From the NCBI GenBank assembly GCA_025359285.1, contig JANYGV010000067.1, positions 1 through 41,809 on the forward strand: 41,809 bases of DNA. The letters are read 5' to 3'. Within the stretch, counting starts at the first letter, position 1; the number at the start of each line of letters is the position of its first letter. The DNA comes from Burkholderiales bacterium. Its GTDB lineage: Bacteria; Pseudomonadota; Gammaproteobacteria; Burkholderiales; Usitatibacteraceae. The notes below the pieces were generated by a model that searched no databases, was not told the DNA's origin, and saw only the letters and a program-made list of their open reading frames with translations. Of the stretch, positions 1 through 7,915 are shown one piece after another. Made by a program: the position numbers and the translations under genes.

Positions 1-155
1 ATATATTTCGAGCTCAAACCATCTTCTTAACCCACTTCATCAACCAGCCTAGGCTCGCGCCTTACTCATCAATGACCGTTAAAAAGCGGCACCCTCATAC
101 TCAGTACCCACCTCAATCAGTTGTCCGTGTTTTTAAAGAGCGTTGCAAATTCGAG

Positions 156-233
<78 letters not shown>

Positions 234-427
234 TCCGATGATTCGTACACCTGAACCTTGAAACTTATTCGAATTGCAGAAGAAGGCTATTGTACACATA
301 CCTGCCTAAAAGCGTCAAGACTCATTCGACTTTTTCTTATGCGCATGATGTTTATGAACTGCCTTATTATCTAGCGGCGTTCGGCGCCAGACTTAAAAAC
401 ATACCCGTTATTGATGAGGAGATTTTA

Positions 428-1054
428 TTGGATCAGCTAACTACCATCGCCATTGCAGCAGCGCTGGCTTGGGCCAGTGGACTTCGTTTATACGTGGTGT
501 TATTTCTACTGGGCTTGGCGGGACATTTTCATTGGTTCAATTGGCAATTGCCCACATCCATGCAGGTACTTGCGCACCCATTGGTCATTGGCACAGTAGG
601 ATTTCTTGTACTTGTCGAATTTTTTGCGGATAAAGTTCCGGCGGTTGATTCAATATGGGATGCTATTCATACTTTTATTCGAATTCCGGCTGGCGCTTTA
701 TTGGCAGCGGGTGTTATCGGCGCGGATGATGGAGCAGCTTGGGCAGTGGTAGCAGGCTTGCTGGGCGGAACGATTACGGCCGGCACTCATTTTATGAAAG
801 CGGGAAGCCGCGCCGCCATTAATACTTCTCCAGAACCCGTCAGCAATTGGATTGCCTCAATAACGGAAGATACGGCCGTTTTGGGCGGTTTATGGCTTGC
901 ATTTACACATCCACTAGCGTTTTTATGGATACTGATTTTGTTCGTAATGCTCACCATATGGCTGCTGCCAAAGCTATGGCGATTTATCAAATGGATTGCC
1001 AGACATGCGATGGACTTGGTTTCAGACGCAATGCATGCAAAACAAGCACTGTAG
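428..1054 (+). CDS. DUF4126 domain-containing membrane protein
   Basis: The product is about 208 residues, hydrophobic, with roughly five to six membrane-spanning stretches. The opening MDQLTTIAIAAALAWASGLR and the middle FFADKVPAVDSIWD block are typical of the DUF4126 family, whose function is unknown. The ORF track starts at a TTG at 290. I prefer the TTG at 428 because a strong GAGGAG ribosome binding site sits six bases upstream, and because the extra 46 residues of the longer version look unlike the family and are not hydrophobic. The gene stands alone, downstream of and opposite to the tRNA. The family call is fairly sure; the physiological role is unknown. Confidence 0.85.
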   Translation: MDQLTTIAIAAALAWASGLRLYVVLFLLGLAGHFHWFNWQLPTSMQVLAHPLVIGTVGFLVLVEFFADKVPAVDSIWDAIHTFIRIPAGALLAAGVIGADDGAAWAVVAGLLGGTITAGTHFMKAGSRAAINTSPEPVSNWIASITEDTAVLGGLWLAFTHPLAFLWILILFVMLTIWLLPKLWRFIKWIARHAMDLVSDAMHAKQAL

Positions 1055-1097
1055 CGCGTCACGCCGCATCACATCAAAGCTAAACGCTAACAACACG

Positions 1098-1694
1098 CTA
1101 TACAACGCGGCGCTCTATCAAGGCTTGTGCCAGTGTGCCGCTATCAACATATTCAAGCTCACCGCCGACGGGCAAGCCGCGCGCGATGCGCGATACTTTA
1201 ACGCCCTGCTCACCAAGCATTTCGCTCACATAATGCGCCGTAGCTTCGCCTTCAACCGTAAAATTGGTCGCCAAAATCACTTCTTTTACCAGCCCGTCAG
1301 CTGCACGTTTGAACAACCGTTCAAGGTTAATTTCTTTTGGCCCGATACCGTCCAGCGGCGAGAGACGACCCATCAATACAAAGTAAAGTCCGCGATAGGT
1401 TTGGGTTTGCTCCATCATCAATAGATCACCCGGCATTTCCACTACACATAGCAGCGACTTATCACGCTTGATTGATTCGCATATTTCGCAAATCTCGCGC
1501 TCAGTAAACGTATTGCACATACCACAGTGGCGTACGCGCTCAACCGCACTTTGCATCGCATCAGCGAGGCTTAGAGCGCCAGCCTGATCACGCTGCAGCA
1601 GGTGATACGCCATACGCTGCGCTGATTTTGGGCCGACGCCGGGCAGGCAGCGAAGGGCTTGAATCAGAGCTTCTAGACTTGAGGGTGGACGCAT
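1098..1694 (-). CDS. recR: Recombination mediator protein RecR
   Basis: This 198-residue protein has the full RecR layout. There is an N-terminal helix-hairpin-helix ([17 protein letters not shown]), a four-cysteine zinc finger (C57, C60, C69, C72), a Toprim domain ([13 protein letters not shown] onward, ending near [18 protein letters not shown]) and the C-terminal [14 protein letters not shown] signature. RecR works with RecF/RecO to load RecA onto SSB-coated single-stranded DNA in the cytoplasm. It is the third gene of dnaX-ybaB-recR, a conserved bacterial arrangement, about 100 bases after ybaB. Length and motifs are normal. Confidence 0.97.
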
Positions 1695-1798
1695 TCGTAA
1701 TGCCTAAATTTTGGGCCGTGGTGTAGGGCTCGCCAAGCGCATAAGCATGAATGTTCAACAACTCGTGACGACGTAAGTTGAAGCAAAAAGCAATTGCA

Positions 1799-2125
1799 TT
1801 AAAACGGCATCTTGAATCCTGCAGGCAACTGCATGCCCGCGGTGAATCCAGACATTTTTTCACTGGATGCAGACTCAGCTTGCCGAACCGCATCGTTCAT
1901 GGCAGCCGCAATTAAATCTTCAAGCATCTCTTTGTCATCCATCACACTCGCGTCAATGGATACGCGCTTCACATCATTGCGACAAGTCATGGTCACCTTC
2001 ACCATCCCACTGCCAGACTGCCCCTGAACCTCGATCAAGGCCAGTTGTTCCTGCGCTTTTTTCATATTTTCCTGCATTTGCTGGGCTTGCTTCATGAGCC
2101 CACCCAAGCCGCCTTTGGGAATCAT
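1799..2125 (-). CDS. ybaB: YbaB/EbfC family nucleoid-associated protein
   Basis: A 108-residue protein with the YbaB/EbfC pattern: a Gly/Met/Gln-rich N-terminal helix ([18 protein letters not shown]), a central strand region with the [19 protein letters not shown] stretch, and a C-terminal helix ending in [16 protein letters not shown]. Family members are small dimeric DNA-binding proteins thought to organise DNA or influence repair. It sits between dnaX and recR on the same strand, 30 bases after dnaX, so it is almost certainly in the same operon. The family is certain; its exact cellular role is not established. Confidence 0.95.
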
Positions 2126-2155
2126 ATTGTCTCCAATAAATTGTAAGGTGAATCG

Positions 2156-3892
2156 TTAGTTGGCTGTAATACTGGCACTAGGACTGGATGGACGAATCGA
2201 TGCTCGATTGATCTCAGCGCCAAAATCCTGTTTCAGATTTTTAATGAATGGATCTTGCTCAATGGCCGCCTCGGCGGCAGTGTGCTCAAGATTACGAGCG
2301 CGATCCTGCTGCGAAGCCACACTATTGCTGACATTTTCTCCACTGGCAATACCGGCAGCCGCACCGATTTTAATGGCCAGACGCAAATTCTCGCCCAGTT
2401 GTGGAATCAGTGCCGCCTTTAGTTTTTCCTGATAGGCCTTATCAGCCAAATGTTTGTGCGCGTCTGCCAAACCCAGCTCAAGTACACCGCCCGCAAACGA
2501 CCGAAATTCAACCTGCTTGGCCAACATGCTGGCGATGCCCGTAAAATTTTGGCGCAACACAAAGGCGGGCCAATCGCCATCAAACTCGACCAGGCCACTG
2601 GCTGAAACCCCAGTACTGGCGGGCGTCTCACAAGGCAATGCCTGAAACGCCTTATCTAGCGCGGCTTTCGAGGGCGTGAGTTCAGCGGATGTGGATTCAG
2701 GGGCCCTTGTCTGCGGCGCGTTCGAACTGGGCGTTTTGTAAGTGCCTGTGACAGGCGGCATCTGCGCGCCTATGTCGCTACCCTTATTACCCACCTCACC
2801 GCGCTTGAATGCGAGCATGCGCAACAACGTCATCGTAAAACCAGATCGCTCGTCTGGCGCCAGCGCTAAATCACGACGACCCAATAACGCAATCTGATAA
2901 AAAAGTTGCACATCATCGGCCGAAAGTTGAGCGGCCACACCCGCGATCCTGGCGGCATCAGGGCCTTCGACTGCGTCGGCACCTGCGCTTTGCACCAGCG
3001 CCACGCGCGCGAGTAAGCTGGCTAAATCCTTTAGCGTTAACTCAAAAGACACATTGCGCTCACCCAAACTGCTAATTTCAGCAAGTAAACCCTTGGCATC
3101 TACGTTCGCCAAACAGCTCAACATTGAGAACAAATAGGTTTGATCCAGCACCCCTAGCATGGTGGCAACTTGATCGGTTTTCACCTCACCCGCTCCATAA
3201 GCAATAGCCTGATCTAACAGCGACAGTGCATCCCGCGCGCTGCCCTCTCCGGCGCGACCAATCATCTCCAGCGCGGGCTGTTCAAAAGGAATTTTTTCGG
3301 TTTGCAAAATATGCGCGAGGTGGCCAGCAAGCAGCGTTGGCGATAAATTTTTCAGATTGAATTGCAGGCAGCGTGACAATACCGTAATCGGCAATTTTTG
3401 CGGATCTGTCGTCGCCAAAATAAATTCCACATGGGCCGGTGGCTCTTCCAGTGTTTTCAGCATCGCGTTGAAAGCTGATTTCGACAGCATGTGAACTTCA
3501 TCAATGATATAAACCTTGTAGCGACCGGAAACGGGCGCATATTGCGCGGTTTCCAAAAGCTCACGCATCTCATCAACTTTGGTATTGGTGGCCGCATCGA
3601 CCTCAAGCAAATCTATAAAGCGGCCCGCATCAATATCTTTACAGGATTGGCACACCCCACAAGGCGTAGCGGTCATACCGCTTTTACCGTCAGTGCCGAG
3701 ACAATTCAACGCTTTTGCCAAAATCCGCGCTAAGGTCGTTTTACCCACCCCGCGCGTACCCGTGAACAAATACGCGTGATGAATACGCCCCGTATCGAGC
3801 GCATTCGCCAACGCCCGCACCACGTGTTCCTGCCCAACCACATCAACAAAGTTGCGTGGTCGCCATTTACGCGCAAGGACTTGATGACTCAT
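2156..3892 (-). CDS. dnaX: DNA polymerase III subunit gamma/tau
   Basis: A 578-residue clamp-loader ATPase subunit. Visible motifs are Walker A GTRGVGKT (residues 45-52), a zinc-binding module (C64, C78, C81, C84), Walker B with D131-E132 in YIIDEVHMLS, and the sensor-1 region ending at SRCLQFNLK. The middle is a low-complexity Pro/Ser/Thr linker (about 375-430). A tau-type C-terminal domain follows (FDGDWPAFVLRQNFTG) which in other bacteria contacts the polymerase alpha subunit. The protein is shorter than the 643-residue E. coli tau. I saw no clear A-AAA-AAG slippery heptamer, so a separate gamma form is not supported. It is the first protein gene after the SRP RNA. Confidence 0.96.
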   Translation of the reverse strand: MSHQVLARKWRPRNFVDVVGQEHVVRALANALDTGRIHHAYLFTGTRGVGKTTLARILAKALNCLGTDGKSGMTATPCGVCQSCKDIDAGRFIDLLEVDAATNTKVDEMRELLETAQYAPVSGRYKVYIIDEVHMLSKSAFNAMLKTLEEPPAHVEFILATTDPQKLPITVLSRCLQFNLKNLSPTLLAGHLAHILQTEKIPFEQPALEMIGRAGEGSARDALSLLDQAIAYGAGEVKTDQVATMLGVLDQTYLFSMLSCLANVDAKGLLAEISSLGERNVSFELTLKDLASLLARVALVQSAGADAVEGPDAARIAGVAAQLSADDVQLFYQIALLGRRDLALAPDERSGFTMTLLRMLAFKRGEVGNKGSDIGAQMPPVTGTYKTPSSNAPQTRAPESTSAELTPSKAALDKAFQALPCETPASTGVSASGLVEFDGDWPAFVLRQNFTGIASMLAKQVEFRSFAGGVLELGLADAHKHLADKAYQEKLKAALIPQLGENLRLAIKIGAAAGIASGENVSNSVASQQDRARNLEHTAAEAAIEQDPFIKNLKQDFGAEINRASIRPSSPSASITAN

Positions 3893-3930
3893 CGGCTATA
3901 GCTCGTTACACGTGGAGAGGTATTAAAAAA

Positions 3931-4031
3931 GGTGGCGAGCCTGACCCTCGGCACTTCAACTACTTCGCTGTGGCTGCTTCGTTCCCGACCTGACCAGATT
4001 CACAAAGGCTGAATGCGTGGAGACCCGCCGA
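3931..4031 (-). ncRNA. ffs: 4.5S signal recognition particle RNA
   Basis: The minus strand contains the SRP domain IV core GGTCAGGTCGGGAACGAAGC, with the conserved GGAA-type tetraloop region and the asymmetric AGCAGCC side. The ends pair as a nine-base helix (GGCGGGTCT with AGGCTCGCC), and a run of T follows the 3' side, giving a simple terminator. It is about 100 nt, as expected for the small bacterial SRP RNA that binds Ffh and targets membrane proteins. Its place just upstream of dnaX is usual in betaproteobacteria. The exact 5' and 3' ends are estimated from the terminal helix. Confidence 0.93.
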
Positions 4032-4101: not shown

Positions 4102-5289
4102 TCATTTGGCGCATGTACGAAAACCACAGAACATATCGCTGCGATCGGGTGTATAAAAATTTCGATATTGCGGATATTTTATGCGTGGATGGGTCATGAA
4201 CGAACCACCTCTTAGCACTTGATGAGTGTAAAACCAGGGCTCAGAGTACTCCTGATACACCCCAGGAACAAAGCCAGGATATGGCGCAAACGCAGATGCC
4301 GTCCACTCCCAGACGTGACCGACAGAGGCCGCAAATGTATCGGAGTGGGTTGCTGCAAACTCCCACTCTGCTTCAGTCGGCAAACGCCGGTTTGCCCATT
4401 CGCAATACGCTTGTGCTTGCGCAAAATTGATATGCATTGCCGCATAATTTTCGTTGCCACTTCGATTGGCATCCCGATTGATGCCTCGCTCGCCTAAAAA
4501 CACAGCAAATTCCGCCTCTGAAACCGGCTGCGGCGAGATCGCAAACCACGCCACAGAGACGCGCTGCGGCGGCAGCTCGTTACAAAACCGGTAGCGATTT
4601 GGATTTTGTCGACCGAGATCACCCAGCACAATATCGCCTGGCTCAAACACAATATCAACGGCATTTACAGCGAGTGGCGCGGTGGGTTTCTTAAGGTGCT
4701 TAAGGTGCTTAACGGGCTTAACGTGTTTAAGGCGCTTAAGGTGCCTAAGGTGCTTAGGGCGCGGCGCCGTCTCCGGCCAAGGCAAATTGAGCGTGCGCAA
4801 TGTCATCGCCAGCGCCTCAGCATGCATGTCTTCATGCGCCACCACCAGCTGAAAATAATGAATATCGTCTGCGCTGCATTGATCGAGTGCATTCAGCGTG
4901 GAAGCCAGTGACTCACGCATGAACGCAAAACAAACATCCCGCGCAGGATAAATATTTGTCCAGCGCGCTTGATGTGCCACATGCGTCGAATCAAAAAGCG
5001 CGTCCGCATCAACAAAACATGACGGCGGCAATTTGCGCTGACGCAACATCTCCGGGGTGCGCTTGGGTAGCCGCACGGCAAAATATTCCTGGAACCACGC
5101 GATATGCGCGAGCTCCCACAACGGTGGATTTATATTCGCGTGATAAGGCACCTCGGCGGGCACCCAAAATGACTCGGGCAATTCGCGGTAAAGTGCGTGC
5201 GTGTATCCGCGCTGCGAGATCAGTGCCTCGCGAATCTGATTTTTAAGCGCCGCCACATCATTAGTTTTTTCGACTACCTGCATTTGCAT
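4102..5289 (-). CDS. senA: Selenoneine synthase SenA (EgtB-like sulfoxide-synthase fold)
   Basis: A 395-residue two-domain protein. The N-terminal DinB-like domain carries the three-histidine iron site (H62 in LAHIAWF; H152 and H156 in AHEDMH). The C-terminal formylglycine-generating-enzyme-like domain runs from about 215 to 395 (RRLPTEAEWEFAA, VWEWTASAF, LRGGSF). It is shorter than and clearly different from the EgtB encoded at 6500. Its partner is a SenB-type glycosyltransferase 52 bases away on the opposite strand, the arrangement that defines selenoneine synthase. SenA joins a selenosugar to hercynine using iron and oxygen. Residues 178-201, between the domains, are an unusual run of basic tripeptides (HLK/RLK/HVK) made by a 9-nt tandem array. 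The alternative is a second EgtB-like enzyme with another thiol donor, less likely given SenB. Confidence 0.85.
   Translation of the reverse strand: MQMQVVEKTNDVAALKNQIREALISQRGYTHALYRELPESFWVPAEVPYHANINPPLWELAHIAWFQEYFAVRLPKRTPEMLRQRKLPPSCFVDADALFDSTHVAHQARWTNIYPARDVCFAFMRESLASTLNALDQCSADDIHYFQLVVAHEDMHAEALAMTLRTLNLPWPETAPRPKHLRHLKRLKHVKPVKHLKHLKKPTAPLAVNAVDIVFEPGDIVLGDLGRQNPNRYRFCNELPPQRVSVAWFAISPQPVSEAEFAVFLGERGINRDANRSGNENYAAMHINFAQAQAYCEWANRRLPTEAEWEFAATHSDTFAASVGHVWEWTASAFAPYPGFVPGVYQEYSEPWFYTHQVLRGGSFMTHPRIKYPQYRNFYTPDRSDMFCGFRTCAK
4691..4762. repeat. 9-nt tandem array (8 units) inside senA
   Basis: Eight consecutive 9-base units on the plus strand follow TTAAGGTGC with one to three changes each. 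On the coding (minus) strand they give eight basic tripeptides of the form [HRP]-[LV]-[KR]. The array lies exactly in the linker between the iron-binding and FGE-like domains of SenA. Confidence 0.9.
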
Positions 5290-5341
5290 AACCCATTGGT
5301 ATCTAAGCTATTTCCAACATTTTTTTCGAGATGCCCACCCA

Positions 5342-6337
5342 GTGAATTCTGCACCGCTTATTCGCATCATTACACCCGCGCTGGCGGATGCCAACAATGG
5401 CAATTGGCGTACGGCACACCGGTGGCAGGCGTTGCTCACCCAGCATTCGACAGGATCAAATTCGACAGCAACTTTTCGAGTTATTGTACAAGGCGAGTGG
5501 ATGGGTGAAAACTGCGATTTACTGATTGCGCTGCATGCCCGCCGCAGCGCCGCCTCGATCACAAGGTTTCGAAAAACGTTTCCGGCAAAGCCTTTGATTG
5601 TGGTTTTGACCGGCACCGACTTATATCGCGATCTTGCAACCTCGGAAGAAGCCCGCCAGTCCTTGCGTTTGGCAGATTCGCTCATCGTATTACAAGAAGA
5701 CGCCATCCACTTTGTACCCATCGAGCATCGCAAGAAAACGCACGTAGTTTATCAATCGGCAAAACCGCTTAAGCCGTGCCTCAAACCAAAATTTAAACTG
5801 GATTGCGTGGTCGTGGGACATTTGCGCGATGAAAAAGATCCTTCCACCATTTTTCGCGCAGCGGCGCAACTAAACGACAGCGACCACATCCACATCTTGC
5901 ACATCGGCGCGCCACTGGACGAATCGCTGGCCGAAATTGCCAGAACGCTTTCTGCTCGCAGCAAGCACTATCACTGGTCGGGCGAGATGAGCCATGGATT
6001 GACGCGCGCCGCCATCAAGCGCGCGCATCTGCTTATTCATCCGTCAATCATGGAGGGTGGCGCAAATGTCATAGTCGAGGCGCTTACATCGGGCACCTCA
6101 GTGCTGGCCTCGCAAATGTCAGGCAACGTCGGCATGTTGGGGCCAGATTACGGAGGATATTTTGCAGTGGGCGATGATGCTGCGTTACTGACGCTATTAA
6201 AAAGGTATTCGCGCGATGCCAATTTCAAATCCCGGTTAGGCAACGCTTGTCTGGCACGAGCCAAATTATTCTTACCTGAAATTGAGTGCGCCTCGCTATG
6301 CTCGATAGCAAACAAACTTCTTGAACCAAAAGCATGA
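5342..6337 (+). CDS. senB: Selenosugar synthase SenB (glycosyltransferase family 4-like)
   Basis: A 331-residue GT-B glycosyltransferase starting at GTG. The N-terminal half has the pattern IRIITPALADANNGNWRTA and CDLLIALHARRSA, and the C-terminal half has the nucleotide-sugar site region HPSIMEGGANVIVEAL. This layout fits SenB, which joins selenophosphate to a UDP-sugar to give the selenosugar used by SenA. SenB proteins are otherwise annotated as TIGR04348-type glycosyltransferases. It diverges from senA with only 52 bases between them, so the two probably share one bidirectional control region. The ribosome binding site is weak. An unrelated GT4 function is possible but unlikely beside SenA. 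Selenium dependence is inferred from the family. Confidence 0.85.
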   Translation: MNSAPLIRIITPALADANNGNWRTAHRWQALLTQHSTGSNSTATFRVIVQGEWMGENCDLLIALHARRSAASITRFRKTFPAKPLIVVLTGTDLYRDLATSEEARQSLRLADSLIVLQEDAIHFVPIEHRKKTHVVYQSAKPLKPCLKPKFKLDCVVVGHLRDEKDPSTIFRAAAQLNDSDHIHILHIGAPLDESLAEIARTLSARSKHYHWSGEMSHGLTRAAIKRAHLLIHPSIMEGGANVIVEALTSGTSVLASQMSGNVGMLGPDYGGYFAVGDDAALLTLLKRYSRDANFKSRLGNACLARAKLFLPEIECASLCSIANKLLEPKA

Positions 6338-6499
6338 CCGCACACACTAATATGGCAACACTGAAACCGAATCAAGAGCCGATGCGTAAAATATTTTCGA
6401 GCGAATAGCCGCTCTAAGGATGTTACCTGCGCCAGCAAGCTCATTAGGTCAACAAAAGAGATCAACGAAGTTAATCAACGAGATCAGCGAGAAACGCTC

Positions 6500-7915
6500 A
6501 TGAGTCCGATTGAAAAGCAGGTCACGCAAAACTTTTTTCAACAAACGTCGCAACACGAATTCAGCGCCGGGCTCAAGCCGCTGCAAGAACGTTTCAAGGC
6601 GGTGCGGGACGCGACTGAACGCCTGACAGCGCCACTGAAAGCCGAAGATTGCAATCTGCAATCGATGCCGGATGCGAGTCCGATTAAATGGCATCTCGCG
6701 CATTCGACCTGGTTTTTTGAGACTTTTATTCTCGAAAAATTCGAACCGAATTTCGCGCCGTTTCATCCAGCGTTTAGGGTCCTGTTTAATTCCTACTACA
6801 ACGGCGTTGGCGACAAACATCCGCGCCATGAACGCGGCCTGATTTCGCGTCCAGATTTAGCAACGGTGTTCGACTATCGTCATGACATTACCAAGCGCAT
6901 CGCCAACCTGATTGAAGCTTTGGGCGACACGAATCACAGCTTCGCCGAACTCATGTGGCTGGGCTGCAATCACGAGGAGCAACATCAGGAGTTAATTCTC
7001 ACTGATCTGAAACATCTGCTCTCCAAAAATCCGCTAAAGCCCGCCTATCAAACACGCTGGCCACTTACTGCAATCGAAGGGCGCCAGCCACGTTGGCATA
7101 AATATGAAGGTGGCTTGGTTGAAATCGGCGCAAGCAAGCCGCGTACGAATGTAAATTCACAAGGCGATTTCTGTTTCGATAATGAAACGCCGCGCCATCG
7201 TGTTTTTTTAGAGCCCTTTGAGATTGCGTCACACCCAGTCACCCACGGCGATTTTGCGGCGTTCATTGCCGATGGCGGCTATCAGCGCCCCGAGCTGTGG
7301 TTATCGCTGGGCTGGGATTGGCTAAACGAGCAGAAAATTACCGCACCTTTGTATTGGGAACTGCGTGATAACGACACGAGCAATAGCGGCACGACCAATA
7401 ACGACACGACCGATAGCGGCACGACAAAAATCTGGATGACATTTACGCTGCACGGCATGGTCGAGATTGATGTGCACACGCCCATTTGTCATGTCAGTTT
7501 TTTTGAAGCTGACGCGTACGCGCGCTGGAAAGGCGCCCGCCTGCCCACCGAGGCCGAGTGGGAACATGCTGCCGCCTTGGCCACACAACATGTTGGGATC
7601 AGCGGCAATTTTCTCGATAGCCACGCCCTGCATCCGCTAGCAATGCGCGAGCAAACGTCGTCAGAATATCCGCAACAATTATTTGGCGATGTGTGGGAAT
7701 GGACCGCCAGCGCGTATTTAGGCTATCCCGGTTACCAAGCGGAAACAGGTGCCGTCGGCGAATACAACGGCAAATTTATGTGCAACCAATTCGTATTACG
7801 CGGCGGCTCCTGCGCCACGCCCACGCCGCACATCCGACCCAGCTATCGCAACTTTTTCCCGCCTGAAGCGCGATGGCAATTTAGTGGTTTGCGCTTGGCA
7901 AGAAATGCGATATGA
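6500..7915 (+). CDS. egtB: Ergothioneine biosynthesis protein EgtB
   Basis: A 471-residue iron-dependent sulfoxide synthase. The N-terminal DinB-type domain has the iron histidines H68 (WHLAHSTWFF) and H158/H162 (NHEEQH). The C-terminal FGE-like domain has RLPTEAEWEHAA, GDVWEWTASAYLGYPG and VLRGGSCATP followed by IRPSYRNFF. EgtB joins hercynine with a thiol (gamma-glutamylcysteine or cysteine) to give the sulfoxide precursor of ergothioneine. It follows senB on the same strand after about 160 bases. The usual partner egtD, the histidine methyltransferase, is not next to it. Residues 290-309 are a Thr/Asn/Ser/Asp/Gly insertion made by four 15-nt repeats in a loop of the FGE-like domain. Start ATG 6500 agrees with family N-termini. 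Confidence 0.95.
   Translation: MSPIEKQVTQNFFQQTSQHEFSAGLKPLQERFKAVRDATERLTAPLKAEDCNLQSMPDASPIKWHLAHSTWFFETFILEKFEPNFAPFHPAFRVLFNSYYNGVGDKHPRHERGLISRPDLATVFDYRHDITKRIANLIEALGDTNHSFAELMWLGCNHEEQHQELILTDLKHLLSKNPLKPAYQTRWPLTAIEGRQPRWHKYEGGLVEIGASKPRTNVNSQGDFCFDNETPRHRVFLEPFEIASHPVTHGDFAAFIADGGYQRPELWLSLGWDWLNEQKITAPLYWELRDNDTSNSGTTNNDTTDSGTTKIWMTFTLHGMVEIDVHTPICHVSFFEADAYARWKGARLPTEAEWEHAAALATQHVGISGNFLDSHALHPLAMREQTSSEYPQQLFGDVWEWTASAYLGYPGYQAETGAVGEYNGKFMCNQFVLRGGSCATPTPHIRPSYRNFFPPEARWQFSGLRLARNAI
7367..7426. repeat. 15-nt tandem array (4 units) inside egtB
   Basis: Four in-frame 15-base units (GATAACGACACGAGC, AATAGCGGCACGACC, AATAACGACACGACC, GATAGCGGCACGACA) encode DNDTS-NSGTT-NNDTT-DSGTT. 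Units alternate as a higher-order 30-nt duplication. The frame is preserved and the stretch lies in a predicted loop. Confidence 0.9.

Follow-up and report, generated by a model that had tools for sequence, protein, structure and literature searches.

Results

The senA–senB–egtB locus and its left boundary

The DNA analysed here (the window) is a stretch of 41,809 nt from a metagenome-assembled genome that is 85% complete and comprises 386 contigs totalling 3.07 Mb. The host is a freshwater-type betaproteobacterium and belongs to the same genus as Betaproteobacterium UKL13-2 (G010). Three genes concern us. The first, senA, occupies positions 4102–5289 on the reverse strand and encodes a selenoneine synthase of 395 aa with DinB-like and FGE-like domains, recognised through NF041186, TIGR04373 and structure matches. 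On the forward strand lie senB (5342–6337; GTG start), encoding a selenosugar synthase of 331 aa (a GT-B Se-glycosyltransferase; TIGR04348), and egtB (6500–7915), encoding a type II ergothioneine sulfoxide synthase of 471 aa (TIGR03440, 550 bits, cut-off 360). All three reading frames are fully open. Profile-match E-values of 1e-99 to 1e-165, together with recurrence of the same gene set at dnaX–recR across the family, show that the assignment is not due to chance. The identities given to the three genes in an earlier note on this DNA stand, profile scores and closest structures (SenA, SenB and type II EgtB) being in agreement; so does its observation that egtD and senC/selD are absent from the locus, where the reading frames include no egtD and no SelD or senC next to senB.

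The left boundary is marked by a small SRP RNA gene (3931–4029, reverse strand; Rfam RF00169, 74.5 bits). Positions 1–4029 of the window are 99.9% identical – some six positions differ – to a contig from another species of the genus (G017:C43; L056/L068), and the two contigs terminate at the same base; inside the SRP RNA gene the identity profile drops to approximately 65–70%. The dnaX–recR part of the window may therefore be a chimeric join or the product of very recent recombination. That the sen genes are themselves foreign to the remaining genome strikes us as hardly credible: all lie to the right of the 4.0-kb junction, so any chimera affects dnaX–recR and not sen. Moreover, SenA, SenB and EgtB, along with the genes of a second contig that carries egtD (C149), group with the sister genome G016 – the support for the EgtD pairing being weak (82/60) – which argues that the sen locus itself is coherent.

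SenA: conserved residues in an atypical protein

The best NCBIfam model for the window SenA is that of SenA, NF041186, at 333 bits versus 160 for EgtB; the score lies below the curated cut-off of 420, as do those of all same-genus SenAs found. The EgtB-related signature domain TIGR04373 is passed (95.9 bits, cut-off 71), and the closest solved structures – 8k5i, 8k5j and 8ryz – are all SenA. Alignment of the active site bears out the assignment: the iron ligands H62, H152 and H156, which align with those of the SenA structures, and the hercynine-binding residues Y348, N377 and F378 are all kept, and both sets are invariant in 19 family SenAs. According to the title of PDB entry 8ux5, OvsA carrying M401Y, Q430N and A431F is a hercynine-binding, selenoneine-making enzyme; at these three positions our alignments place Y, N and F in the window SenA, whereas wild-type OvsA has M, Q and A.

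Departures from the family norm lie elsewhere in the protein. A 9-bp tandem repeat, CTTAAGGTG, present in 7.4 copies (4690–4756; TRF), forms a KHL/KHLKK-rich insertion in the interdomain linker, which measures 48 aa versus 22–26 aa in relatives. The family alignment also reveals a shortened loop in the FGE domain (residues 265–283; 4441–4497, reverse strand) without the WSxxGNxWR segment: at 19 aa it is the shortest of the 19 family SenAs, against 34–54 aa in the 18 relatives. The loop is variable within the family, one half of it being absent from other genera. AlphaFold returned a pLDDT of 73 and a pTM of 0.63; a control from the same genus, its loop intact, reached 81 and 0.82. Both predicted folds match SenA best (TM 0.71–0.72 for the window protein). 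Throughout the genus SenA has a higher rate of evolution than SenB or EgtB, and in this the window copy does not stand out; its dN/dS against G016, taken over the N-terminal half, is approximately 0.18, the G016 SenA being broken at contig ends with no overlap between the pieces. We regard the window SenA as structurally atypical, in its short loop and repeat insertion, and as likely to be active.

SenB and the flanking intergenic regions

SenB scores 401 bits against TIGR04348 (cut-off 300), and its closest solved structure is SenB. Equivalents of N20, T23, Q131, K158, E231 and E239 are kept (roles of the residues are from PMC10891094). The equivalent of H235 is N, giving EGGANV and not EGGAHV, and most family members likewise have EGGANV.

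Measured between the annotated starts, ATG and GTG, the region from which senA and senB diverge is 52 nt long (5290–5341), in agreement with the earlier note. Its suggestion that this layout implies shared regulation by selenium or stress fares less well. Promoter-like sites in the region are no more frequent than in shuffled sequence, and on this ground the idea of a shared promoter was rejected. We surveyed the 80 nearest loci, a sample biased to close relatives. Of the 17 that belong to the family, 16 have senA diverging from senB, as do 45 of the 63 from outside it, and the starts of the two genes often overlap: divergence is thus the rule, and provides no evidence of special regulation.

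The spacer between senB and egtB (6338–6499), defined by alignment with relatives and by the position of senC in G016, resembles the senB–senC leader of relatives (CTGAAACC...GCGTAAAAT). The likeness rests on alignment: a strict regular expression for the senC leader matched in G016 only, and just one 8-mer was formally unusual in a shuffle.

EgtB, EgtD and an associated transporter

The window EgtB is closest to structures of the type II enzyme of Chloracidobacterium thermophilum (Cabther EgtB; 6qki, 8qf6), which it matches over nearly its full length at 441 bits, compared to 121 bits for 4x8b; FNSYY and GEYNGKF are common to both. It differs from that enzyme in an insertion, NDTSNSGTTNNDTTDSGTTK, formed by a 15/30-bp in-frame tandem repeat (7368–7425; TRF). 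In both SenA and EgtB, then, linker or loop regions contain insertions made of in-frame tandem repeats, with units of 9 bp in the former and 15/30 bp in the latter.

An intact egtD is found at C149:10004–10969 (336 bits, cut-off 291). No EgtE C–S lyase exceeded the cut-off in the host genome, the best match scoring 71 bits against a cut-off of 400. Other PLP lyases might stand in for EgtE.

On C149 egtD adjoins ABC transporter genes of the order phnE–phnE–phnC–phnD-like, the binding protein of which scores 371 bits against TIGR04553 ('putative selenate ABC transporter'; cut-off 250). The same transporter set adjoins egtD in five further genomes (G016, G017, G018, G019 and G021), and a transporter of the TIGR04553 type is present in 27 of the 63 sen loci outside the family, beside egtD or senB; this neighbourhood is also seen at L060 (6409–9937). 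Five more egtD- or sen-linked binding proteins were scanned, and all five pass the TIGR04553 cut-off. The PhnCDE-like operon that neighbours the fused SelD in G004 was not counted, as it falls short of TIGR04553 (104 bits, cut-off 250). Selenite is shaped like phosphite and would suit a putative binding protein of the PhnD type. One former cluster seems to survive as two islands in the window genome, and SelD lies apart from both.

The source of selenophosphate

The selenophosphate synthetase of the host is an NADH-dehydrogenase–SelD (NDH–SelD) fusion, split over two contigs: the N-terminal part (TIGR03169, 512 bits) and the beginning of SelD are encoded on C5, and the remainder on C70. Both SelD pieces exceed the TIGR00476 (selD) cut-off. 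The ends of the two contigs overlap by exactly 141 nt, indicating a single gene at an assembly break. Fusions of this kind are known, are reported to be frequent in aquatic bacteria, and have a CxxC active site (PMC2398784, PMC4561486); the corresponding region of the host protein reads CGGCGAK. Upstream of the fused SelD in L061 (2190–3796) lie genes for an Fe–S subunit and a molybdopterin oxidoreductase resembling tetrathionate/thiosulfate reductase.

The earlier note had concluded that egtD and a selenophosphate synthetase must both be encoded elsewhere, or else that the pathway is incomplete. A search of the genome, in which the absence of either would have told against the pathway, recovered both, and it is the first alternative that survives.

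Selenophosphate has a further use in these bacteria. The tRNA selenation enzyme mnmH (selU) is present in the host and in 28 of 28 family genomes; selA was not found in the host genome and is present in just two of the 28.

The main support for the fusion serving as SenC comes from phylogeny: the four fused SelDs of the genus form one clade, which is sister to sen-linked fusions of Variovorax, Polaromonas and other Comamonadaceae, among them five of the nine fusions sited directly after senB. Variovorax sp. PCZ-1 (L118) and Polaromonas (L084, L090), members of this sister clade with the same type of fused synthetase, also resemble the host in having egtD beside a TIGR04553 transporter in their sen loci; in these bacteria, however, the fusion directly follows senB, whereas in the window genome it lies on other contigs. 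Within the genus SenC is present in eight genomes and the fusion in four, neither was found in one, and the two never occur together (a figure of 0.002 for this exclusivity ignores phylogeny).

The contigs carrying the fusion are short (3.8 and 3.1 kb), they come from a metagenome-assembled genome, and the sister G016 has SenC at the locus, all of which would fit a fusion that had been mis-binned and a normal senC lying in the 15% of the genome that the assembly lacks. We consider this improbable. The fused SelD falls inside the genus clade and is 85% identical to that of G014; the mnmH gene needs a SelD; and G021 independently combines senA, senB, egtB and a fused SelD, with no SenC found.

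Distribution of the genes and loss of senC

The presence of senA, senB and egtB is ordinary in the family. A SenB above the cut-off is encoded by 24 of the 28 family genomes and, across the order, by 116 of the 399 genomes sampled. Most relatives have senA<>senB–senC (<> denoting divergence), many with egtB and egtD, and the common family arrangement beside dnaX–recR is senA<>senB–senC–egtB<egtD, most members of genus g2 being without egtB. Compared to the cassettes of this kind in G019, G020 and G022, the window has the same dnaX–recR neighbourhood and the same divergent senA/senB, but has lost senC and become parted from egtD. In the 63 loci outside the family the position after senB is held by SenC in 36, by an NDH–SelD fusion in nine and by neither in 17.

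The reference system is the SenA–SenB–SenC cluster of Variovorax paradoxus DSM 30034 (Kayrouz et al. 2022), as outlined in PMC9814287 and PMC10903977. The window shares with it homologues of SenA and SenB in which the key residues are conserved, pointing to the same chemistry. It differs in having no SenC at the locus, in the adjacency of egtB and senB, and in the shortened loop and linker repeat of SenA.

In the sister genome G016 senC lies between senB and egtB, and G019 and G020, the sisters of G021, also keep it, whereas G021 does not. It follows that senC was probably lost twice in the genus, in the lineage of the window and separately in that of G021. Both senC-less genomes carry the NDH–SelD fusion.

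Other members of the genus have lost more. The complete genome of UKL13-2 (L057, 6674–8870) has senB and senC beside dnaX, with no senA, egtB or egtD detected genome-wide: a genotype that is either selenosugar-only or a remnant. G013 and G014 have lost every sen and egt gene, and none were found in G015. The four pufM-positive (phototrophic) genomes of genus g1 are exactly those without senA, egtB and egtD, a pattern that probably stems from one ancestral event. Phototrophy as a cause of sen loss was rejected: pufM and egtD are mutually exclusive in the genus, but G003, from a sister genus, has both. Outside the family, Curvibacter, Hylemonella and Rhodoferax (L097, L107, L126, L083 and L085) have an egtD–senB–senC operon at a locus that lacks senA, which may lie elsewhere in these genomes or have been replaced.

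Such erosion of the module – to senB–senC in UKL13-2, and to nothing in G013 and G014, with none found in G015 – invites the thought that the selenoneine branch of the window genome is also decaying, its SenA inactivated by loop loss and repeat expansion and its senC gone, so that only EgtB and EgtD, and possibly SenB, would still work. The short loop, the lower AlphaFold confidence and the loss of senC from the locus fit such a course. We nonetheless think it unlikely, given that the senA reading frame is intact and every family-invariant residue kept, that the divergence of the window SenA is no greater than that among relatives, that dN/dS against G016 (N-terminal half) is low at ~0.18, and that the loop varies in the family to the point where other genera are without one half of it.

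Discussion

Our data make it probable that the window genome encodes a genuine selenoneine and ergothioneine system, its genes dispersed among at least three sites of the same genome, in which a fused SelD replaces senC. From the identities, residues and phylogeny of the genes, and from their presence in the genome bin, we infer catalysis, flux and product as follows. EgtD would trimethylate histidine to hercynine. The NADH-dehydrogenase–SelD fusion would produce selenophosphate for a pool common to MnmH/SelU and to SenB, which would combine it with a UDP-sugar to form a selenosugar. SenA would then join selenosugar and hercynine oxidatively, and breakdown of the selenoxide would release selenoneine. 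In parallel, EgtB would draw on cysteine and the same hercynine pool, leading to ergothioneine. The pathway is thus most likely complete, with both products made from one pool of hercynine.

The arrangement in the window probably arose from the senA<>senB–senC–egtB<egtD cassette by loss of senC, the fused SelD acting as replacement, while egtD became parted from the cassette along with the putative selenium ABC transporter. A broader proposal has it that SenC has been lost at least twice in one genus, that the NDH–SelD fusion both substitutes for it and feeds tRNA selenation, and that the TIGR04553 system to which egtD is tied is a dedicated importer of selenium, possibly selenite. We advance it tentatively, rating its chances at slightly under even.

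What the window genome holds is a rearranged form of a known pathway, with recurrent replacement of SenC, and not an incomplete one. The lack of senC or egtD beside senA and senB should not be equated with a broken pathway. The recurrent link between sen genes and TIGR04553 transporters yields a specific candidate for selenium uptake in the selenoneine pathway. Finally, the series contained within a single genus – from full cassette to senC-less locus, to senB–senC only, to nothing – makes the minimal requirements for selenoneine production open to test.
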